From: Candidatus Latescibacterota bacterium
Lineage (GTDB): Bacteria; Latescibacterota; UBA2968
Reading direction: 5' to 3'
Assembly (NCBI GenBank): GCA_021295695.1
Contig: JAGWBW010000031.1
Location: forward strand, 1 to 35,626
Length of the DNA: 35,626 bases
Under the pieces are notes generated by a model, which was given only the letters and a program-made list of their open reading frames with translations, was not told where the DNA came from and searched no databases. Position numbers and translations under genes: made by a program. How positions within the stretch are numbered: the stretch's first letter is position 1; every line of letters starts with the position of its first letter. Positions 13,812 through 26,902 of this stretch are shown in pieces.

Positions 13812-13909
13812 TGGCGGGAATGTGTGGGAATCGAACCCACCTAGCGTGGGGTTAGCACGCAACAACGGGTTTGAAGCCCGCGGGGGACACCAGTTCCCCA
13901 TCCACTCCC
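13812..13909 (-). tRNA. selC: tRNA-Sec (anticodon UCA)
   Basis: A 98-base tRNA gene with encoded CCA. The 5' acceptor strand is GGGAGTGG and the 3' strand is ACATTCCC with discriminator G. The D arm is long (GGGGA / TCCCC), and the anticodon stem GGG/CCC region encloses CTTCAAA, giving anticodon TCA. There is an extended variable arm (GCGTG / CACGC) and a T arm GTGGG-TTCGATT-CCCAC. The long acceptor plus long variable arm and UCA anticodon identify selenocysteine tRNA rather than a suppressor; the eighth acceptor pair looks like a G-A mismatch. The gene begins two bases after the selD stop codon, so it is co-transcribed with selD and must be cut out of that transcript. It decodes the UGA codons in selD and the redoxin gene next door. 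Confidence 0.96.
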
Positions 13910-13911
13910 AA

Positions 13912-14955
13912 TCACGCTCGTACCTCAATTTCACCGGGATGCTCTGCAACCACCTCGCCAATATCTCGAGCCATCACACCGCGCTCAATCAGTGCCTCAA
14001 GAAAAGCATCAGCCGCATCAGATGCAAGTGCAATCAGCAAGCCACCAGAAGTCTGCGGATCAAAAAACAAACGCCTCAAAGACTCGTCAACATCTTCGGC
14101 AAACCTCACCGCATGCCCTCGCGCCGCCCGATTGCGCCGCAAACCACCGCCCTCGCGCTCCTCTGCAATTTGCAAAGCAAGATCAAAACGCGGCACATCA
14201 GAAGCTCGAATGCAAAACCCTACCCCACTCGCCTGCGCCATCTCCAACCCGTGACCGAGCAACCCAAACCCGGTAATATCCGTACATCCACCCGCTTTGT
14301 ATGCAACCATCTCCTCGGCTGCGATGCGATTCAATTGCACCATAGAATCCACCGCAATCTGCAAATCACCTTCATCAATCTCACCATTTTGAAAGGCATC
14401 CGACATCAAACCCGTACCCAGCGGCTTCGTCAAAATGAGACAATCGCCCACCCGCGCACCCGCATTGGTCTTCACATCAATTGGATGCACAACCCCCGTA
14501 ACAGACAACCCGAACTTGGGTTCCACATCCTCCACAGAATGCCCACCGACCAAAACCGCGCCGGACTCCGCCACCTTCTCCTGGGCACCTTTTAAAACCT
14601 CTGCAATCACCTCTGGATCGACATCATCACTCGGAAACCCACAAATATTCAGCGCAGTAATCGGACGCCCCCCCATCGCATACACATCGCTCAGCGAATT
14701 CGCTGCGGCAATCTGCCCATACGCATGCGGATCATCGACAATAGGCGTAAAAAAATCCACCGTCTGAATCAGCGCCGTATCCTCAGAAATCCGAAACACA
14801 CCGGCATCATCAGCCGTATTCATCCCCACCATCAAATCGGGATGCGCCACCTGCGGCAACTTTTTCAAAATCACATCCAGCACCGCTGGATCGAGTTTCG
14901 ATGCTCAACCACCGCAACTGACGAGCTGAGTCAATCTTTTAGCGCGATACTTCAT
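13912..14955 (-). CDS. selD: Selenide, water dikinase; itself a selenoprotein
   Basis: SelD makes selenophosphate from selenide and ATP for selenocysteine synthesis. The frame from GTG 14883 alone lacks the catalytic N-terminus. Reading through one in-frame TGA (14905-14907) restores it: ATG 14955, then LTQLVSCGGU, where U (residue 17) takes the place of the catalytic Cys and is followed by the ASKLDPAVL stretch. This is the established Sec form of SelD. Later blocks include NTADDAGVF, the VDFFTPIVDDP motif, AAANSLSDVYAMGG and GGHSVEDVEPKFG. Total length is 347 residues including Sec, normal for SelD. The ATG overlaps the stop of the upstream redoxin gene (ATGA), indicating translational coupling. 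selC follows directly. An automatic annotation would truncate this gene. Confidence 0.95.
14875..14907 (-). promoter_or_regulatory. SECIS-like element of selD
   Basis: The Sec codon TGA (14907-14905) is followed by a 13-base spacer and a perfect seven-pair hairpin, ATCCAGC / GCTGGAT, with the three-base loop GGT (hairpin 14891-14875). Bacterial SECIS elements lie just after the UGA, inside the coding region, with a G/U-containing loop that binds SelB. Position and loop fit this. Confidence 0.75.
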
Positions 14956-19941: not shown

Positions 19942-21066
19942 ATGAAAATCACCAAACTCGAAACTTTTCTCGTCAAACCGCGCTGGCTCTTTCTCAAAAT
20001 GCACACAGACGAGGGCCTCGTTGGCCTTGGCGAACCCATCCTGGAAGGACGCGCCCTCACCTGCGCTCAAGCCGTGGCCGAACTCGAACCCTATCTCATC
20101 GGCAAAGACCCCCGTCGCGTGGTACATCACTGGCAGGCCATGTATCGCCATGCTTTTTATCGCGGCGGACCCATTCTCACCAGCGCCCTATCCGGTGTTG
20201 AACAAGCACTTTGGGACCTCGCCGGGAAAGCCGCAAACATGCCCGTCTATGAAATGCTCGGCGGTCCCCTGCGCGACCGCATCAAAATGTACAAAGGTAC
20301 GGGAGGAGGAGGCACACCCGAACAGGCTGCTGCCGCAGTAAAAGAGCGCAAAGAACAGGGATTTATCGCCATAAAGACCGGCCCAGCCAAAATTCGCCCG
20401 GCGCGCATCGTCGAAAACCCGGCCTTTATCGATCACGCAGTCGAAACATTTGCCGCCATGCGCGAAGCGGGCGGACCGGACTTTGACATCGCCATCGACT
20501 TTCACGGCGCCATATCACCTCAAACCGCCGCCATCCTCATCAAAGCACTCGAACCCTACCAACCGATGTTTGTCGAAGAACCCATCCAGTGTCAAGACAT
20601 AGAAGGCATGGCAGAACTCGCACGCAAAACCCACTTACCCATCGCAACAGGCGAACGCATCTTCACCAAATGGGGCTTCCGCGACCTCCTCGAAAAACGC
20701 GCCTGTTCCATCATACAACCCGACCTGTCACACGCTGGCGGCATCTTCGAGACCCGTCTAATCGCAGGCATGGCAGAATCCTATTACGCAGCCGTTGCCC
20801 CGCACTGTCCGCTCGGTCCCATCTCCCTGGCCGCCTGCATCCAACTCGACGCCAGCATCCCCAACTTCCTCGCTCAGGAACATACCATGTTTGGCGAAGA
20901 CTATCTCAAAGAACCGTTCCAATTCAAAGACGGCTACGTCGAATTGCCCAAAGGTCCCGGCCTTGGCATTGAACTGGACGACGACAAAATGGAAGACAAA
21001 ATTGGCCACGACTGGAACAATCAAAGATCCCTTCATCCCGACGACGGATCAGTCGTTGATTGGTAA
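19942..21066 (+). CDS. dgoD: Mandelate racemase/enolase superfamily dehydratase, D-galactonate dehydratase-like
   Basis: A 374-residue enolase-superfamily protein whose N-terminus (MKITKLETFLVKPRW, then FLKMHTDEGLVGLGEP) and FYRGGPIL segment closely match E. coli DgoD as I recall it. Metal and catalytic blocks are DFDIAIDFHG, MFVEEPIQ, IATGERIFTKW and VAPHCPLGPISLAA. DgoD dehydrates D-galactonate to 2-dehydro-3-deoxygalactonate. The ATG at 19942 is chosen because AAGGAG lies seven bases upstream and the family N-terminus starts there; the frame is open to 19789, overlapping the HAD gene. The gene follows the HAD phosphatase and precedes a broken SDR, probably one sugar-acid operon. Other acid-sugar dehydratases of the group remain possible. 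Confidence 0.85.
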   Translation: MKITKLETFLVKPRWLFLKMHTDEGLVGLGEPILEGRALTCAQAVAELEPYLIGKDPRRVVHHWQAMYRHAFYRGGPILTSALSGVEQALWDLAGKAANMPVYEMLGGPLRDRIKMYKGTGGGGTPEQAAAAVKERKEQGFIAIKTGPAKIRPARIVENPAFIDHAVETFAAMREAGGPDFDIAIDFHGAISPQTAAILIKALEPYQPMFVEEPIQCQDIEGMAELARKTHLPIATGERIFTKWGFRDLLEKRACSIIQPDLSHAGGIFETRLIAGMAESYYAAVAPHCPLGPISLAACIQLDASIPNFLAQEHTMFGEDYLKEPFQFKDGYVELPKGPGLGIELDDDKMEDKIGHDWNNQRSLHPDDGSVVDW

Positions 21067-21087: not shown

Positions 21088-21784
21088 ATGTCACAACTCA
21101 CCGGAAAAGTCGCGCTCGTCACCGGCAGTGGGCGGGGTATTGGTCGCGCCATTGCCATCGCCTTTGCCACAGAAGGAGCCGAACCGCAGAACAACTCGAT
21201 GCCGTTGCCGCAGAAATTCGCGCCCTCGGTCGCAAAGTCCTGTCCGTACCCACCGATGTCACCAACCGCCAGAGCGTTGATGCACTATCAGAAAAAGTTC
21301 GCGGAGAATTTGGCCGTTTGGACATCCTCGTCAACAACGCGGGCGGTGGCATAGAGCGCAACAGCATCCTCGACAGCGATCCCGATGTCTGGATCGAAGA
21401 CGTTACGGTAAACTGCATCAGCGCCTACCTCGTCTCGCACGCCCTGCTCCCCCTCATGATTGAATCCGGCGGTGGCAGAGTCATCAACGTGGGATCGGGC
21501 ATGGGCCATCGCCCCAGAGCGGGCGGTTCTGCGTATCAAGTCGGCACCAATGCCTATCAGAAGAAGTCTGGGAAAACAACATCACAGTCAACGAACTCAT
21601 CCCCGGCCCGGTAGCCACACATCTTACCGGCGGTCGCATGAGAGTGGGCGGTCCACCGCCCTTCGCGCCCAGCGAAGTCGTCAAAGCACCCGAAGATGTC
21701 GTCCCACTCGCGCTCTTCTTAGCCACCCAACCCGACGGGGGACCAACCGCTCAAACCTTCAGTCTCACGCGACGTCCTATTTAG
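21088..21784 (+). pseudogene. SDR family oxidoreductase broken by two frameshifts
   Basis: The gene starts well (TTAAGGAGACC before ATG 21088) and encodes [21 protein letters not shown], the Rossmann start of a short-chain dehydrogenase. Near 21180 the frame changes; the expected second beta strand (about six residues after EGA) is missing, and the next frame gives [14 protein letters not shown], then [16 protein letters not shown] and GRVINVGSGMGH. At about 21545-21555 the frame changes again. The segment that should carry the active-site Lys and helix after AYQVG is lost, and ENNITVNELIPGPVATHLT plus a normal C-terminus follow to the TAG at 21784. Both lesions look like small deletions. Either a true pseudogene or assembly error; the former is favoured by two independent lesions next to an AT-rich insert. 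Confidence 0.82.
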
Positions 21785-21953
21785 AAACTGTCTCATTCTC
21801 TGGTTGGATTCTATTTCTTATTCTGCTTGCTTTTTAAGGGGTTGGATGCTACTTTTTTCCAAATCCTATCTGTATTTGGATATTATGTATCTTTAGACAA
21901 AAAGTTTTGAAGATAAATGACTTACAAGCGATAAACAGGATGAAGGAAAAAAT

Positions 21954-23468
21954 ATGCTAAAGAAATTGCGAATCCAAAACTTCAAGGTTTGGAAGGATAC
22001 TGGCGAAATTGACCTTGCCCCTATTACTCTTTTCTTTGGTGCCAACAGTTCCGGTAAGTCCAGTATTGGTCAGTTCCTGATGATGCTCAAGCAGACGATT
22101 GAATCACCTGCTCAGACAGCGGTATTTTATTCAGGTGAGAGAAATTCGGCAGTTCAACTGGGCTCGTACGAAGAAATGGTCTTTGGGCGAAAACCAAAAG
22201 GAATTAACATTAATTTTAAGTACCAGTGGTCACGAAATAGTTCGCGTGCTACATCTTATGATCATCTTCATAAGATGTCTTCCTATAATGATTTGGCCTT
22301 TCAAGCAGAAATCGTTCCCCAAGGAGAGACTCAATACACTACTAATCTGAAGTCTGCACCTGAGACTTCTTATCTTCCAGTCACCCGGGGTTTTAAATAT
22401 ACTTTGTTCAAAAATGGGGAAATCCAGTGTTCCCTTGGGATGAAGCGAAAGCCCCATACATCCTCAAAGTATGAAATTGAATCTTCTAACTTCAAGTTAG
22501 AAAAGCAGAAGTCAGAGCAAGAGGATGTGAATTTGGGTACTCCTGTCCATTTTTACGGTTTCCCTCCTGAGGTTTTTACCGCCTATGCAAACATCTATGA
22601 TTTTGTCACAGGGGTCCATTATCTGCATGAAGAACTGTTTAGAGATCTTTTTTATCTTAGCCCACTTCGTGTGAAAGCGGATCGTTCGTCGTATTACTAT
22701 ACCGATCCAGAAAGTGTGGGATACCAAGGCGAAGATACTGTCGCAGCAATTGTGGCGGCTCGAGACCGTGAAATTGTGCTCCCCCCCATAGAAAAAATTC
22801 AGAAAAGGTCATTTGAGGAGGTCATTGCTTATGAACTCCAAAAGATGGGCTTAATTGAGCAATTCAGGGTACAACAAATTACTAAGCAGGTTTATGGCGT
22901 CCAGATACGTACTAAAGGATCAAAGACCTGGGTGGAACTTCCAGATGTTGGGTTCGGTATCTCGCAAGTGCTACCGGTGCTCGTGCAGTGTTTCTATGCA
23001 CCTGAAGGATCTATCATCCTAATAGACCAACCAGAAGTTCACCTTCATCCCTATGCACAGGCGGCTTTAGCCGATGTAATGATTGATGTCATCAATTCCA
23101 GATTGATTTTTGAAAAAACGTACGAAGAGAGATTCGGTACCCAAGTTAAAAGATCTCTCAGAACAGATTACAAAAAAAGAAATATCCAGTTGATCATTGA
23201 AACCCACTCTGAACATTTCCTCCGGCGATTGCAAAGACGAATAGCCGAGGGCCGCTTGTCTGAAGATAAAGTATCAGCCTACTTCGCCAATATCAATGCT
23301 CCCCCAGCTAAGCTGGAGCGTTTAAAAATAGACGAGTTTGGCAATATACAGAACTGGCCGGAAAACTTTTTTGGCGATGAGATGGGAGACATTCTCGAGC
23401 AAGCCAAGGCGGCGACAAAAAAGAGGAGGCAACAAAACATTCAGGGCTATGGGGAGACAAATGAATAA
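21954..23468 (+). CDS. AAA family ATPase with DUF3696-like C-terminus
   Basis: A 504-residue RecF/OLD-like ABC-type ATPase. It begins with LRIQNFKVWKDTGEIDL, then Walker A GANSSGKSS (about residues 29-37). A large insert with mixed helices covers about residues 60-300. DVGFGISQVLPVL (about 330) plays the signature-motif role, ILIDQPEVHLHP (about 355-366) is Walker B, and ETHSEHFLRRLQ (about 417) is the switch-histidine region. The tail FGNIQNWPENFFGDEM is typical of DUF3696 proteins. No TOPRIM nuclease domain is evident, unlike OLD proteins. Base composition is more AT-rich than the genes before 21.8 kb. The stop overlaps the PIN gene start by eight bases, so the two are coupled. Likely a nucleotide-driven regulator or sensor of the neighbouring nuclease; this role is inference. 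Confidence 0.88.
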   Translation: MLKKLRIQNFKVWKDTGEIDLAPITLFFGANSSGKSSIGQFLMMLKQTIESPAQTAVFYSGERNSAVQLGSYEEMVFGRKPKGININFKYQWSRNSSRATSYDHLHKMSSYNDLAFQAEIVPQGETQYTTNLKSAPETSYLPVTRGFKYTLFKNGEIQCSLGMKRKPHTSSKYEIESSNFKLEKQKSEQEDVNLGTPVHFYGFPPEVFTAYANIYDFVTGVHYLHEELFRDLFYLSPLRVKADRSSYYYTDPESVGYQGEDTVAAIVAARDREIVLPPIEKIQKRSFEEVIAYELQKMGLIEQFRVQQITKQVYGVQIRTKGSKTWVELPDVGFGISQVLPVLVQCFYAPEGSIILIDQPEVHLHPYAQAALADVMIDVINSRLIFEKTYEERFGTQVKRSLRTDYKKRNIQLIIETHSEHFLRRLQRRIAEGRLSEDKVSAYFANINAPPAKLERLKIDEFGNIQNWPENFFGDEMGDILEQAKAATKKRRQQNIQGYGETNE

Positions 23469-23976
23469 CTTACCTAAGAAGAATGTTGTTATAGATACTA
23501 ATGTCGCCCTTGTGGCGAACCGCAAGGCAATTCATGCAGACGAAGATTGTATAGATACCTGTATCCAGGTAATTGAAGACATTAGGGATAGATGCTGCGT
23601 AGTGGTGGATAATCAGTGGGCCATTATGAGAGAGTATGAGGGGCAATTAAACTCGTCCGACCAACCCGGGGTAGGCGACGCCTTTCTCAAGTGGCTCTTG
23701 ACACATCTATGGAATCCAAGCTATTGCTTACAGGTTGAGATTACTCCCCACGCTGTACGTGGATTCCAGGAATTTCCAGATGACCCTGCACTTGGCGGTT
23801 TTGATCGGAGTGATCGCAAATTTGTCGCTGTCGCACGAGCAGCAGGTCTGGACTCGCCTCCGCCGATTCTCAACGCTTCCGATACGGACTGGTGGGATCA
23901 TCGTGCCGCGCTTAACGCCCACGGCATACAGATCAAATTCCTGTGTCCCCAACTCATGCCCCATGAAGAAAGATGA
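23461..23976 (+). CDS. PIN-like nuclease
   Basis: A 171-residue protein beginning MNNLPKKNVVIDTNV. Asp12 in the IDTN motif, Glu58 or Glu60 in MREYEG, Asp115/Asp118 in GFDRSDRKFVAVA and Asp141/Asp143 in NASDTDWW reproduce the acidic set of PIN-domain ribonucleases in the correct order, so the active site looks complete. PIN nucleases cut single-stranded RNA, leaving 5'-phosphate and 3'-OH. ATG 23461 overlaps the end of the ATPase gene by eight bases; the frame is open to 23338, but that part lies inside the ATPase gene. An RNA ligase follows 25 bases later. It is longer than typical VapC toxins (about 130-140 residues) and no VapB-like antitoxin is adjacent; the ATPase may control it instead. 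Confidence 0.82.
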   Translation: MNNLPKKNVVIDTNVALVANRKAIHADEDCIDTCIQVIEDIRDRCCVVVDNQWAIMREYEGQLNSSDQPGVGDAFLKWLLTHLWNPSYCLQVEITPHAVRGFQEFPDDPALGGFDRSDRKFVAVARAAGLDSPPPILNASDTDWWDHRAALNAHGIQIKFLCPQLMPHEER

Positions 23977-24001
23977 GAGCAAAATACGAGGAGAAAGGTC
24001 T

Positions 24002-24715
24002 GTGAGAGACAATTTCTTCAAATTCCCTTCTACGCCACATCTGGCACTCCCTGGTGATGTAGATATCCGGGGCGATAAGGTCATGTCGGAGCCTGAACGC
24101 GATGCGTTCTTGGGACATAAACTTGTCGTAGAAGAAAAGGTTGACGGGGCGAATCTTGGTATCTCGTTTGACTCCAATGGAAATATCCGTGCTCAAAATC
24201 GGGGGGCGTACTTATCCCTTCCAAGTTTGGGACAATGGAAAAAATTATTAGAGTGGCTATCCCCGAAAGAGGACATTCTTTTTGATCATTTGATTGACCG
24301 CTATATCCTTTTTGGCGAATGGTGCTATGCTCAGCATTCGGTCTTTTATGACCGATTACCAGATTGGTTTCTCGGTTTCGACATCTATGACAAACAAGTT
24401 GGTCACTTCTTGTCAACAGATAAACGCGATGCATTTTTTCGGGAGATGGAAATAAGTAAAGTCCCATTCATTGCACATGGTCATTTCACGTTTTCAGATC
24501 TAAAGGAATTTCTGTCATTTTCAAGATTAGGCGATCAATTAGCAGAGGGTCTTTATCTTAGATTTGATCAGGACAATCGGCTTGTACAAAGTACCAAATT
24601 GGTGCGATCAGACTTTATCCAATCAATAGAACAGCACTGGTCGCGATCAGGTATTAAAAAAAATCAGGTGATATGGGAGTCATATACTACGCCTTCCAAA
24701 AGCGTTGTTATATGA
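24002..24715 (+). CDS. ATP-dependent RNA ligase family protein
   Basis: A 237-residue nucleotidyltransferase. Motif I is VEEKVDGANLG, with Lys46 the expected adenylylated residue. Motif III/IIIa corresponds to ILFGEWCYAQHSVFYDRLPD and FLGFDIYD, motif IV to EGLYLRFD (Glu182) and motif V to STKLVRSDF (Lys199). All core motifs are therefore present; a large C-terminal domain is absent, as in small Rnl2-like ligases. It would join 3'-OH and 5'-phosphate RNA ends using ATP. The GTG at 24002 has AGGAG about nine bases upstream and is preferred; ATG 23963 in the same frame overlaps the PIN gene and has no ribosome-binding site. It is the last gene of the ATPase-PIN-ligase cassette. A DNA ligase role is less likely given the size and lack of OB-fold. 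Confidence 0.85.
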   Translation: MRDNFFKFPSTPHLALPGDVDIRGDKVMSEPERDAFLGHKLVVEEKVDGANLGISFDSNGNIRAQNRGAYLSLPSLGQWKKLLEWLSPKEDILFDHLIDRYILFGEWCYAQHSVFYDRLPDWFLGFDIYDKQVGHFLSTDKRDAFFREMEISKVPFIAHGHFTFSDLKEFLSFSRLGDQLAEGLYLRFDQDNRLVQSTKLVRSDFIQSIEQHWSRSGIKKNQVIWESYTTPSKSVVI

Positions 24716-24841
24716 ACACAAGAGCATTGTTGTCGTTTGTCTGTTTGATGCAACGCTGGATGCTGGCCTATATTAGGCTCGGGGAAAAACCTGGGGCGAG
24801 GTCCCTGCTGAGAAGTTGAATAGCATGGAAGGAAAATGAAG

Positions 24842-24876
24842 AAGCACTCCAACAATATTTGTGGAGTGCTTTTTTT
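24842..24876 (+). terminator. Rho-independent terminator after RNA ligase cassette
   Basis: AAGCACTCCA pairs with TGGAGTGCTT across a ten-base loop and runs into a stretch of T (24870-24876). It closes the ATPase-PIN-ligase cassette about 127 bases after the ligase stop. The hairpin also overlaps an in-frame upstream ATG (24836) of the next gene. Confidence 0.8.
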
Positions 24877-24949
24877 AGTTTTTGCACTATCTTTAACAAT
24901 TCATCTCGTAAACGAGAAAACCCAATTAACCTCTAACAAAGGAATTCTC

Positions 24950-26902
24950 ATGTCAAAAAAAATTATCGCCTACGGCATGGACGGATTCATCACTCCCATG
25001 ATGAAATACTTTGCCGACGAAGGCGTTATCCCAACTTTTAAACGCATGCTCGACGAAGGCGCAATCAACGAAACCTTTCCCTCCTTCCCGGTCTGGACAC
25101 CCACCAACTGGGCAACTCTCTCCACTGGCGCGCACACCGGCACACACAGCGTCTCGCGCTGGCGCGTCGAAGTAGGTCCTGACGAACGCGTCAACTCTTT
25201 TGACGGCCGCGCCAACAATGCCCAACGCCTGTGGAACGCCCTCGAGCGCGAAGGACTCAAAGGCGTTGCCCTGCACTATCCGGCAGCGCATCCATCGGGC
25301 GTGGAAAAAGGATATGTAATTGACGGATTTGGTCACCCCGGACACGCCAGCACCGACTATGAAATCGCCGCAGCACAGGCTTATACCACCGCCGAACACG
25401 TCGAAGAAATCGTACAAATGGACCACGACGGCACAGCCGTGCGCCGAAGACAGCGAAGCATAGAACCCATCCCAGCACTATCGCCTGCGAATGGCTGGAC
25501 CAATCTCCCACAAAGTGCTGCCCCACCCCTTGCCTCCGCCATTGCAATTCACGCGCGCCTCGGCGGCGACATCAACCGATTTCACCTGCTCGTCTTTGCC
25601 AGCACCAATAACGGATACGACACCCTGCGCGTCTGCCGATCCCAGAATGGCAACGATCACATCGCCGAAGCCAGCACGGGATCGTGGAGCAACTGGGCCA
25701 TCGAACCCTTCTGTATTGAAAGCCGCGAACAACGCGCCTCTGTGCGTTTCAAACTCCTCGAACTCGAACCCGATGGCTCCCATCTCAAGCTCTACCGCTC
25801 TCAGATCACATATAGCGATGGCTTCACATATCCAGATGACCTCTCCGACGAAATCATCCAGCGATTTGGTCCCTATCAAGAACACGCCTCCATGACCCCC
25901 TACACGTCTGGCATGACCGACTTTGACACCGCCCTTGAAGAATGCGAATATCAGGGCCTCTGGTTTGCCGACGTAGCCAACTATATGCTCCACGAAAAAG
26001 ATGCCAGTTTTTTTATCTGTCACTGGCATCTCTACGACTACATCAACCACATCCACCTCGACGGCGTCGATCCGGTTTGCCCGGCTTACGACCCCGACAA
26101 AGCCGACGATATCATGCACCTCTTCCGCAAAGCCTATATTGTTGGCGACAAAATTTTAAAACGCATGTGGGACGCCGCCGATGACACCACTTATGTCGGC
26201 GTGCTTTCCGATCACGGTGCTTCGCCAGATGTGCGCATCGCCAATATCCGAAAATTCCTGCACGACAGTGGATTCACCGTTCTAAAAGAAGACGCCAGCG
26301 ACGGCGTCGAGCGCGATGAAGTCCTCGAAAGAGAGGTCGACTTTGAAAAAACCCGCGCCTACCTCAAAGACGACAAGGGATTCGACATCTGGATCAACGC
26401 CGAACCCGGTCCCAAATTCGACGAAATCGAACGCGATGTCCTCCTCGCCCTTCGCACCTGGGTCGATGAAGAAATCGGTCGCAATGTCGTTGCCATCGCC
26501 CTGCCCAGGCGCGACGCGTACATACTCGGGCAATGGGGCGACCAGTGCGGCGACGTCATCTTCGCCTGGGATCACGGGTTCGTCAGCGGATACTACGGCC
26601 AGTGGAAAGGCATTGTGGGTGGCGGTTGCGTAGGCGCGCCAGAAGTCTTCGGCGCACACCACGGCGGCTTTATCCCCACGCGCAGCGACATCTCATCGAG
26701 CTTTGGTTCTTTTTTTCTCTCAGGTCCTGGTATCAAACAAGGCTACGAGCGTCCCACCGACAAACTCGGCTACATCCACGCCGCCGACGTCGTTCCCACG
26801 CTTTGTCACATCTTCGGCATCGCCCCACCCGACCAGAGCCAGGGCGCGGTTGCCTATGATATTCTCGAAGGGCATGAGATGGTGCGGGAACGACCTGAAT
26901 AA
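24950..26902 (+). CDS. Alkaline phosphatase-fold phosphodiesterase / nucleotide pyrophosphatase-like protein
   Basis: A 650-residue enzyme of the type I phosphodiesterase group. IIAYGMDGF supplies the first metal Asp, and FPVWTPTNWATLSTG holds the Thr nucleophile region. HWHLYDYINHIHLDG gives an Asp/His pair and VGVLSDHGASP the second metal Asp-His. GAHHGGFIPTRSD and DVVPTLCHIFGIAPP complete the fold. It would hydrolyse phosphate mono- or diesters; substrate is unknown. ATG 24950 with AAGGA upstream is chosen because the protein family begins at the first strand. An upstream ATG (24836, with GGAAGGAAA before it) would add 38 residues resembling a membrane anchor or signal peptide but reads through a terminator, so it is less likely yet not excluded. 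GC-rich codon use matches the chromosome rather than the AT-rich cassettes around it. Confidence 0.82.
   Translation: MSKKIIAYGMDGFITPMMKYFADEGVIPTFKRMLDEGAINETFPSFPVWTPTNWATLSTGAHTGTHSVSRWRVEVGPDERVNSFDGRANNAQRLWNALEREGLKGVALHYPAAHPSGVEKGYVIDGFGHPGHASTDYEIAAAQAYTTAEHVEEIVQMDHDGTAVRRRQRSIEPIPALSPANGWTNLPQSAAPPLASAIAIHARLGGDINRFHLLVFASTNNGYDTLRVCRSQNGNDHIAEASTGSWSNWAIEPFCIESREQRASVRFKLLELEPDGSHLKLYRSQITYSDGFTYPDDLSDEIIQRFGPYQEHASMTPYTSGMTDFDTALEECEYQGLWFADVANYMLHEKDASFFICHWHLYDYINHIHLDGVDPVCPAYDPDKADDIMHLFRKAYIVGDKILKRMWDAADDTTYVGVLSDHGASPDVRIANIRKFLHDSGFTVLKEDASDGVERDEVLEREVDFEKTRAYLKDDKGFDIWINAEPGPKFDEIERDVLLALRTWVDEEIGRNVVAIALPRRDAYILGQWGDQCGDVIFAWDHGFVSGYYGQWKGIVGGGCVGAPEVFGAHHGGFIPTRSDISSSFGSFFLSGPGIKQGYERPTDKLGYIHAADVVPTLCHIFGIAPPDQSQGAVAYDILEGHEMVRERPE

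Follow-up and report, generated by a model that had tools for sequence, protein, structure and literature searches.

The window, by which we mean the whole stretch of 35,626 nucleotides analyzed, contains three co-directional genes encoding an ATPase, a PIN-like protein, and an RNA ligase (Table 1). The initial annotation had given the first two genes an overlap of 8 bases, placed the third gene 25 bases farther on, and noted a terminator downstream, and we found the genes, both spacings, and the terminator as described; the terminator was also found in a congener (genome G037). We assigned the ligase a GTG start codon at position 24002, which is where its relatives start. An alternative ATG upstream, at position 23963, would overlap the PIN gene, and it is from this ATG that the ligase residue numbers used below are counted.

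Table 1. Features of the cassette and its flanks (window coordinates)
Feature	Coordinates	Strand	Evidence and remarks
Left flank, short-chain dehydrogenase (SDR) gene	21088..21786	+	Window copy carries a frameshift; G037 copy intact at 245 aa
Cassette-bearing insert	21787..24931		SDR stop codon to ribosome-binding region of phosphodiesterase-like gene; empty-site comparison
ATPase, AAA_15/AAA_21 plus C-terminal DUF3696, HEC-03B-like	21954..23468	+	Pfam, PADLOC
PIN-like nuclease (putative), HEC-03A-like	23461..23976	+	PADLOC, AlphaFold2 model, residue conservation
RNA ligase, adenylyltransferase domain only	24002..24715	+	PF09414, structural matches
Rho-independent terminator of the cassette	24842..24876	+	Hairpin with T run, -15.7 kcal/mol
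Right flank, phosphodiesterase/alkaline-phosphatase-like gene	24950..26902	+	Homologous start at 24950

The edges of the insert are approximate, being the points at which homology with empty sites ends. The frameshift in the SDR gene could represent either real decay or an assembly error. To the right, the first ATG of the flanking gene (position 24836) falls inside the insert, upstream of the homologous start codon. The cassette is AT-richer than its surroundings, as had been claimed, with a GC content of ~42 to 47% compared with ~52 to 57% on both sides. No Rfam families were found between positions 21000 and 25500, and a promoter scan gave a result no better than that obtained with shuffled sequence. 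The immediate neighbors of the window cassette are metabolic genes, with no defense genes among them. Elsewhere in the window, a tRNA-Sec gene adjoins a selD-like gene (positions 13812 to 14883), and a capacity to make selenoproteins is likely.

The three proteins

The ATPase matched the Pfam families AAA_15 (85.9 bits), AAA_21, and DUF3696 (38.9 bits), and its Walker A, ABC signature, and Walker B motifs were all present and conserved. Its score was 343.5 bits with the PADLOC model HEC-03B and 97 bits with the PADLOC AriA profile. The protein belongs with the OLD, PtuA, and AriA ATPases and is related also to Rad50. The window ATPase has an insertion of its own at about residues 382 to 407; reading of the G037 ATPase sequence (L022:6478-8055) brought out a helix-hairpin-helix-like insertion near the C terminus that is absent from the window protein.

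The second gene had been annotated as encoding a PIN nuclease, an identification that we retain in a more cautious form. Its product matched the PADLOC model HEC-03A with 126 bits (residues 8 to 164 on profile positions 2 to 153 of 159), and the acidic set of residues was conserved, with D12, N14, D50, D118, and D141 invariant in 73 of 73 sequences and E58 present in 72 of 73. A Pfam search with the window protein returned no match, and weak matches to PIN_3 appeared in 10 of 57 relatives (best value, 0.0022). When the AlphaFold2 model (pLDDT, 93.8) was used in a fold search, the best matches were mostly PIN domains (SMG6, VapC, and PRORP), although at E values above 0.02, which are not significant. 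The model, the motifs, and the weak profile matches suggest a PIN-like nuclease, less firmly than had been stated. PIN nucleases are metal-ion dependent and leave 5'-phosphate and 3'-hydroxyl ends, which are the substrates of ATP-dependent RNA ligases and need no healing enzymes. The PIN gene has the ATPase and ligase genes as its partners and not a small DNA-binding antitoxin gene such as accompanies the toxin in VapBC, for which there is no room between the three genes.

The third protein matched PF09414 (RNA_ligase) with 111.3 bits and none of the PADLOC models. T4 Rnl2, Naegleria Rnl, and REL1 were among the top structural matches of its model (best E value, about 1e-7). It shares the adenylyltransferase fold and motifs with T4 Rnl2 and Naegleria Rnl but is 16 to 17% identical to them and lacks their second domain: no T4 Rnl2-type C-terminal domain was recognizable in the window ligase, which stops ~40 residues past motif V, and the family, at about 225 to 250 amino acids, corresponds to the adenylyltransferase domain alone. 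T4 Rnl2 requires its C-terminal domain for sealing 5'-phosphate ends.

Motifs I to IV of PF09414 are present in the window ligase. The K59-x-D-G motif (K59, D61, and G62), R80, E119, D140, and E195 were invariant in 71 of 71 sequences, and the motif V lysine, K212, was kept in every readable sequence, that of the window included. Two residues before this lysine, however, position 210 is a serine in the window and an arginine in all 68 of the other readable relatives, so that the R-x-K of this subfamily's motif V region is broken in the window copy. Because of this R210S change, the claim that all of the cassette's catalytic motifs are intact, which holds for Walker A and B, the PIN acidic set, ligase motifs I to IV, and K212, is not strictly true of the window copy. 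The ligase dN/dS ratio of about 0.2 indicates purifying selection. A test for relaxed constraint in the window copy lent that idea no support, since the two branches had accumulated changes evenly (10 and 11).

These assignments bear on the nature of the substrate. It is very improbable, in our estimation, that the PIN-like protein cuts DNA in an OLD- or Septu-like manner and that the ligase closes nicks in DNA or in hybrids of RNA and DNA. DNA is indeed what OLD, Rad50, and PtuA, the kin of the ATPase, act on or work with, the G037 protein has its helix-hairpin-helix-like insert, and the PIN assignment is not statistically firm, but the profile and fold of the ligase are those of RNA ligases, and the weak PIN_3 matches and PIN-like best structural matches of the second protein likewise argue for an RNA substrate.

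Conservation and genomic context of the trio

Using a ligase alignment to scan one genome per species, we obtained 580 confirmed relatives and retained the best 80. Intact ATPase and PIN genes lay upstream of the ligase gene in 69 of these best 80 of 580 relatives, bearing out the expectation that the three genes would recur in fixed order; the other 11 comprised 6 with partial or disrupted partners, 2 cut by contig ends, and 3 without partners. Overlaps of 4 bases at both joints were typical of the 69 intact loci, and among the best 80 relatives the trio spans at least 16 bacterial phyla. The catalytic residues of the PIN protein and the ligase were kept in relatives, as had also been anticipated. 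Furthermore, pairwise identities were correlated among the three proteins (r = 0.88 for ATPase-PIN, 0.75 for ATPase-ligase, and 0.72 for PIN-ligase), far exceeding permutation, with shared ancestry contributing to the correlations. The ATPase-PIN-ligase trio is a real, ordered unit across phyla.

The distribution of the cassette is patchy, covering a few percent of genomes. Within the window's phylum, the ligase was found in 4 of 64 genomes: that of the window, those of two congeners, and a fourth in which the match was weak and partial. When we searched six phyla in the reverse direction with the HEC-03A model, a ligase adjoined 26 of 41 PIN genes. The remaining 15 HEC-03 loci, 1 of which stops at a contig edge, lacked the ligase, implying that the ATPase-PIN pair does not generally need it. 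Ten of these 15 cluster together on the ATPase tree, but we rejected a clean split of ligase-bearing and ligase-less systems into two clades, since that tree requires six changes or more. The ligase was present in 9 of 12 plasmid PIN records, and the trio was carried on conjugative plasmids of Aeromonas and Rhodococcus. A comparison of the Aeromonas operon with E. coli DNA gave no match.

A PglXI gene lay upstream of the trio in 13 loci. In most of them, only a few bases separated the end of that gene from the start of the ATPase gene, and many of the 13 also had BrxHII, PglZ, and BrxA on the far side, which together make up a BREX type III operon. Other trio loci adjoined type I restriction genes. 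In a nonexhaustive sample of 138 flank proteins, PADLOC matches at E ≤ 1e-30 included PglZ (9), BrxC (4), and BrxA (4), whereas a small control of 129 proteins from random regions of the same phyla contained one BREX gene (BrxD), the rest of its matches being mostly to PD-T4-6 models and probably representing unrelated kinases. BREX genes were commoner in the cassette flanks than in these control regions. Ligase-less pairs also occurred among BREX-like and restriction-like genes, judged by reading the neighboring ORFs, and one such pair on an Acinetobacter plasmid lay within a restriction island. Many relatives of the cassette are thus found inside or beside another defense system, whereas the window's own site is metabolic.

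The HEC-03 match, the embedding in BREX type III operons, the type I restriction neighbors, and the plasmid carriage all agree with the defense role first proposed, and the identification of the cassette as a defense system is well supported by these comparisons of sequence and gene neighborhood. That the genes instead make up an RNA-processing operon with a housekeeping role and no connection to phages is extremely improbable: the metabolic genes flanking the window cassette would suit such an operon, but the patchy distribution, the empty sites, the embedding among defense genes, and the occurrence on plasmids would not.

We found no PIN relatives in viral contigs and phage records, and the trio is therefore not phage cargo in those collections. 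Stand-alone relatives of the ligase (L012 to L021, 25 to 38% identity) occur on large phage contigs and are possible counter-repair enzymes. These phage ligases had no ATPase or PIN neighbor, and scanning their surroundings for tRNA genes turned up a single doubtful candidate.

History of the site and exchange of the nuclease

The cassette site was empty in 8 of the 11 genomes of the genus, with the SDR and phosphodiesterase genes lying ~24 or 95 bases apart. G037 has a complete trio at the same chromosomal site as the window, and G038 has retained an open ligase gene beside a broken ATPase gene, with the PIN gene absent. A transposase-like ORF is inserted in the G038 ATPase gene (L023:9350-10063). 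The ligase has a synonymous divergence of 0.81 from its G038 counterpart, in keeping with the 0.87 of the flanking gene; the ligase is therefore old at the site, and loss probably accounts for the empty sites. The transfer that had been suggested from base composition is upheld as mobility, for which the empty sites speak, but not as a simple recent event, given the age of the ligase.

Between the window and G037, the ligases were 89% identical and the flanking DNA about 95%, and the identities fell to 38% for the PIN proteins and about 25% for the middle of the ATPase. The closest relative of the window PIN (53%) was the ligase-less PIN of congener G032. From these comparisons, the window PIN looks as if it was swapped in, its nearest kin being PINs of ligase-less systems. 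The same pattern of a similar ligase beside a divergent PIN was seen in Myxococcota (L152 and L159; ligase 85% identical, PIN 30%) and in the L102 group; the reverse pattern, a divergent ligase with a similar PIN, was also seen in less extreme form. The conservation of the ligase beside divergent PINs implies that it is compatible with different nucleases, as expected of a general end-sealing enzyme. For the window copy, the case for a repair step is weakened by the R210S change, which is unique among 69 readable sequences, together with a PIN of the ligase-less type.

The same genomes speak to whether the trio might be a toxin-antitoxin-like addiction module, with a PIN toxin, the ATPase as regulator, and the ligase as antidote, serving mainly in replicon maintenance and secondarily in phage defense. 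PIN domains are common as toxins (VapC), the cassette is carried on plasmids, and a ligase would fit as an antidote. We nevertheless consider such a module quite unlikely, in view of the embedding of the cassette between BREX genes and its restriction neighbors, the occurrence of ligase-free versions, the absence of the cassette from most of the genus, and the retention of the ligase in G038 although the PIN gene is gone.

Proposed mechanism and relation to known systems

In the reading that we favor, whose chances we place just above even, the cassette is a mobile operon that protects against phages: the ATPase would control a PIN protein that cuts RNA, and the ligase would reseal the cuts. 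The ABC/OLD-type ATPase, with its DUF3696 domain, would be the sensor and gate, and the PIN-like effector would act as a metal-dependent RNase, its target probably being tRNA or some other RNA with structure. The ligase, small and Rnl2-like, would then reseal the 5'-phosphate and 3'-hydroxyl ends left by the PIN protein, and this resealing would limit leaky self-damage or reverse the response. The phage trigger, the RNA target, and the resealing role of the ligase are the elements of this scheme that we infer. Weighing against it are the absence of a recognizable C-terminal domain from the ligase, the third or so of HEC-03 loci that do without a ligase, the R210S change, the limited firmness of the PIN assignment, and the metabolic neighbors of the window cassette.

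The ligase of an anti-phage system might also do something other than mend PIN cuts: it could attack, by misjoining, circularizing, or adenylylating RNA ends, or it could repair the damage done by another nuclease, such as a ribonuclease of the phage or host. Such a role would suit an enzyme reduced to its adenylyltransferase domain, tolerant of very different PIN partners, and often missing from the pair, but we regard it as fairly unlikely, since the end chemistry expected of a PIN nuclease suits the ligase without healing enzymes and its near-constant adjacency to the nuclease is most simply explained by cutting and sealing.

If the ligase does reseal PIN cuts, the operon may represent self-reversing immunity, in which gated RNA cleavage and resealing are combined and cells survive activation instead of dying. 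The ligase would then be the fixed component, and the nuclease and the variable part of the ATPase would be the ones exchanged. We advance this broader proposal tentatively, as somewhat short of an even bet. Most RNA-cutting defenses are regarded as leading to a dormant or dead cell, with repair coming from the phage or from general host pathways, and a widespread defense operon with its own RNA ligase would make the reversibility of RNA-cutting immunity directly testable. A further outcome is a suggested chemistry for the effector of HEC-03, a candidate already catalogued, and the ligase is offered as a third gene for detection tools to seek.

The initial annotation knew of no described system with this set of genes. 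That view stands for the ligase, which is an unlisted part, but not for the ATPase-PIN pair: HEC-03 (Hma-embedded candidate 3, PADLOC) has the same adjacent PIN-like protein and ATPase as the window. PADLOC has no ligase model for HEC-03, whereas the window cassette and most related loci have a ligase. Several HECs are active, HEC-06 being the only one named (PMC12988326). In the open-licence literature, which we covered incompletely, we found neither an experimental test of HEC-03 nor an account of the complete trio, although the trio may be mentioned in a survey of RNA repair in biological conflicts that appeared in 2016.

PARIS (AriA-AriB) similarly joins an ABC-type ATPase to an effector nuclease, and AriB cuts tRNA to leave 5'-phosphate and 3'-hydroxyl ends (PMC12409363). 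AriB, however, is a Toprim nuclease, whereas the cassette effector is PIN-like (neither the second nor the third cassette protein had a Toprim match), and a ligase is undescribed in PARIS. Septu and retron PtuA-PtuB systems have an ATPase related to that of the cassette, and tRNA cleavage is reported for Septu (PMC13096335), but they use an HNH nuclease and are not known to include a ligase. With PrrC and T4 Pnkp-Rnl1, a defense nuclease cuts RNA and an ATP-dependent ligase reseals it (cited in PMC12409363). In that case the two enzymes come from opposing sides and a kinase is required as well, whereas the cassette unites nuclease and ligase in one operon that includes no kinase. Pnkp1-Rnl-Hen1 and RtcAB also carry out bacterial RNA repair (PMC4411300 and PMC7790460) but include end-processing enzymes, and their operons are not known to encode a nuclease paired with an ABC ATPase.

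Variant arrangements were observed on two plasmids. On an Acinetobacter soli plasmid (L126:7992-9287), the HEC-03 pair is followed by an HNH endonuclease in the place of the ligase, adjoining restriction-modification genes, and on a Pseudomonas aeruginosa plasmid (L127:5956-7974), a related ligase gene precedes that of a different AAA ATPase, in an arrangement that lies between two copies of IS21.
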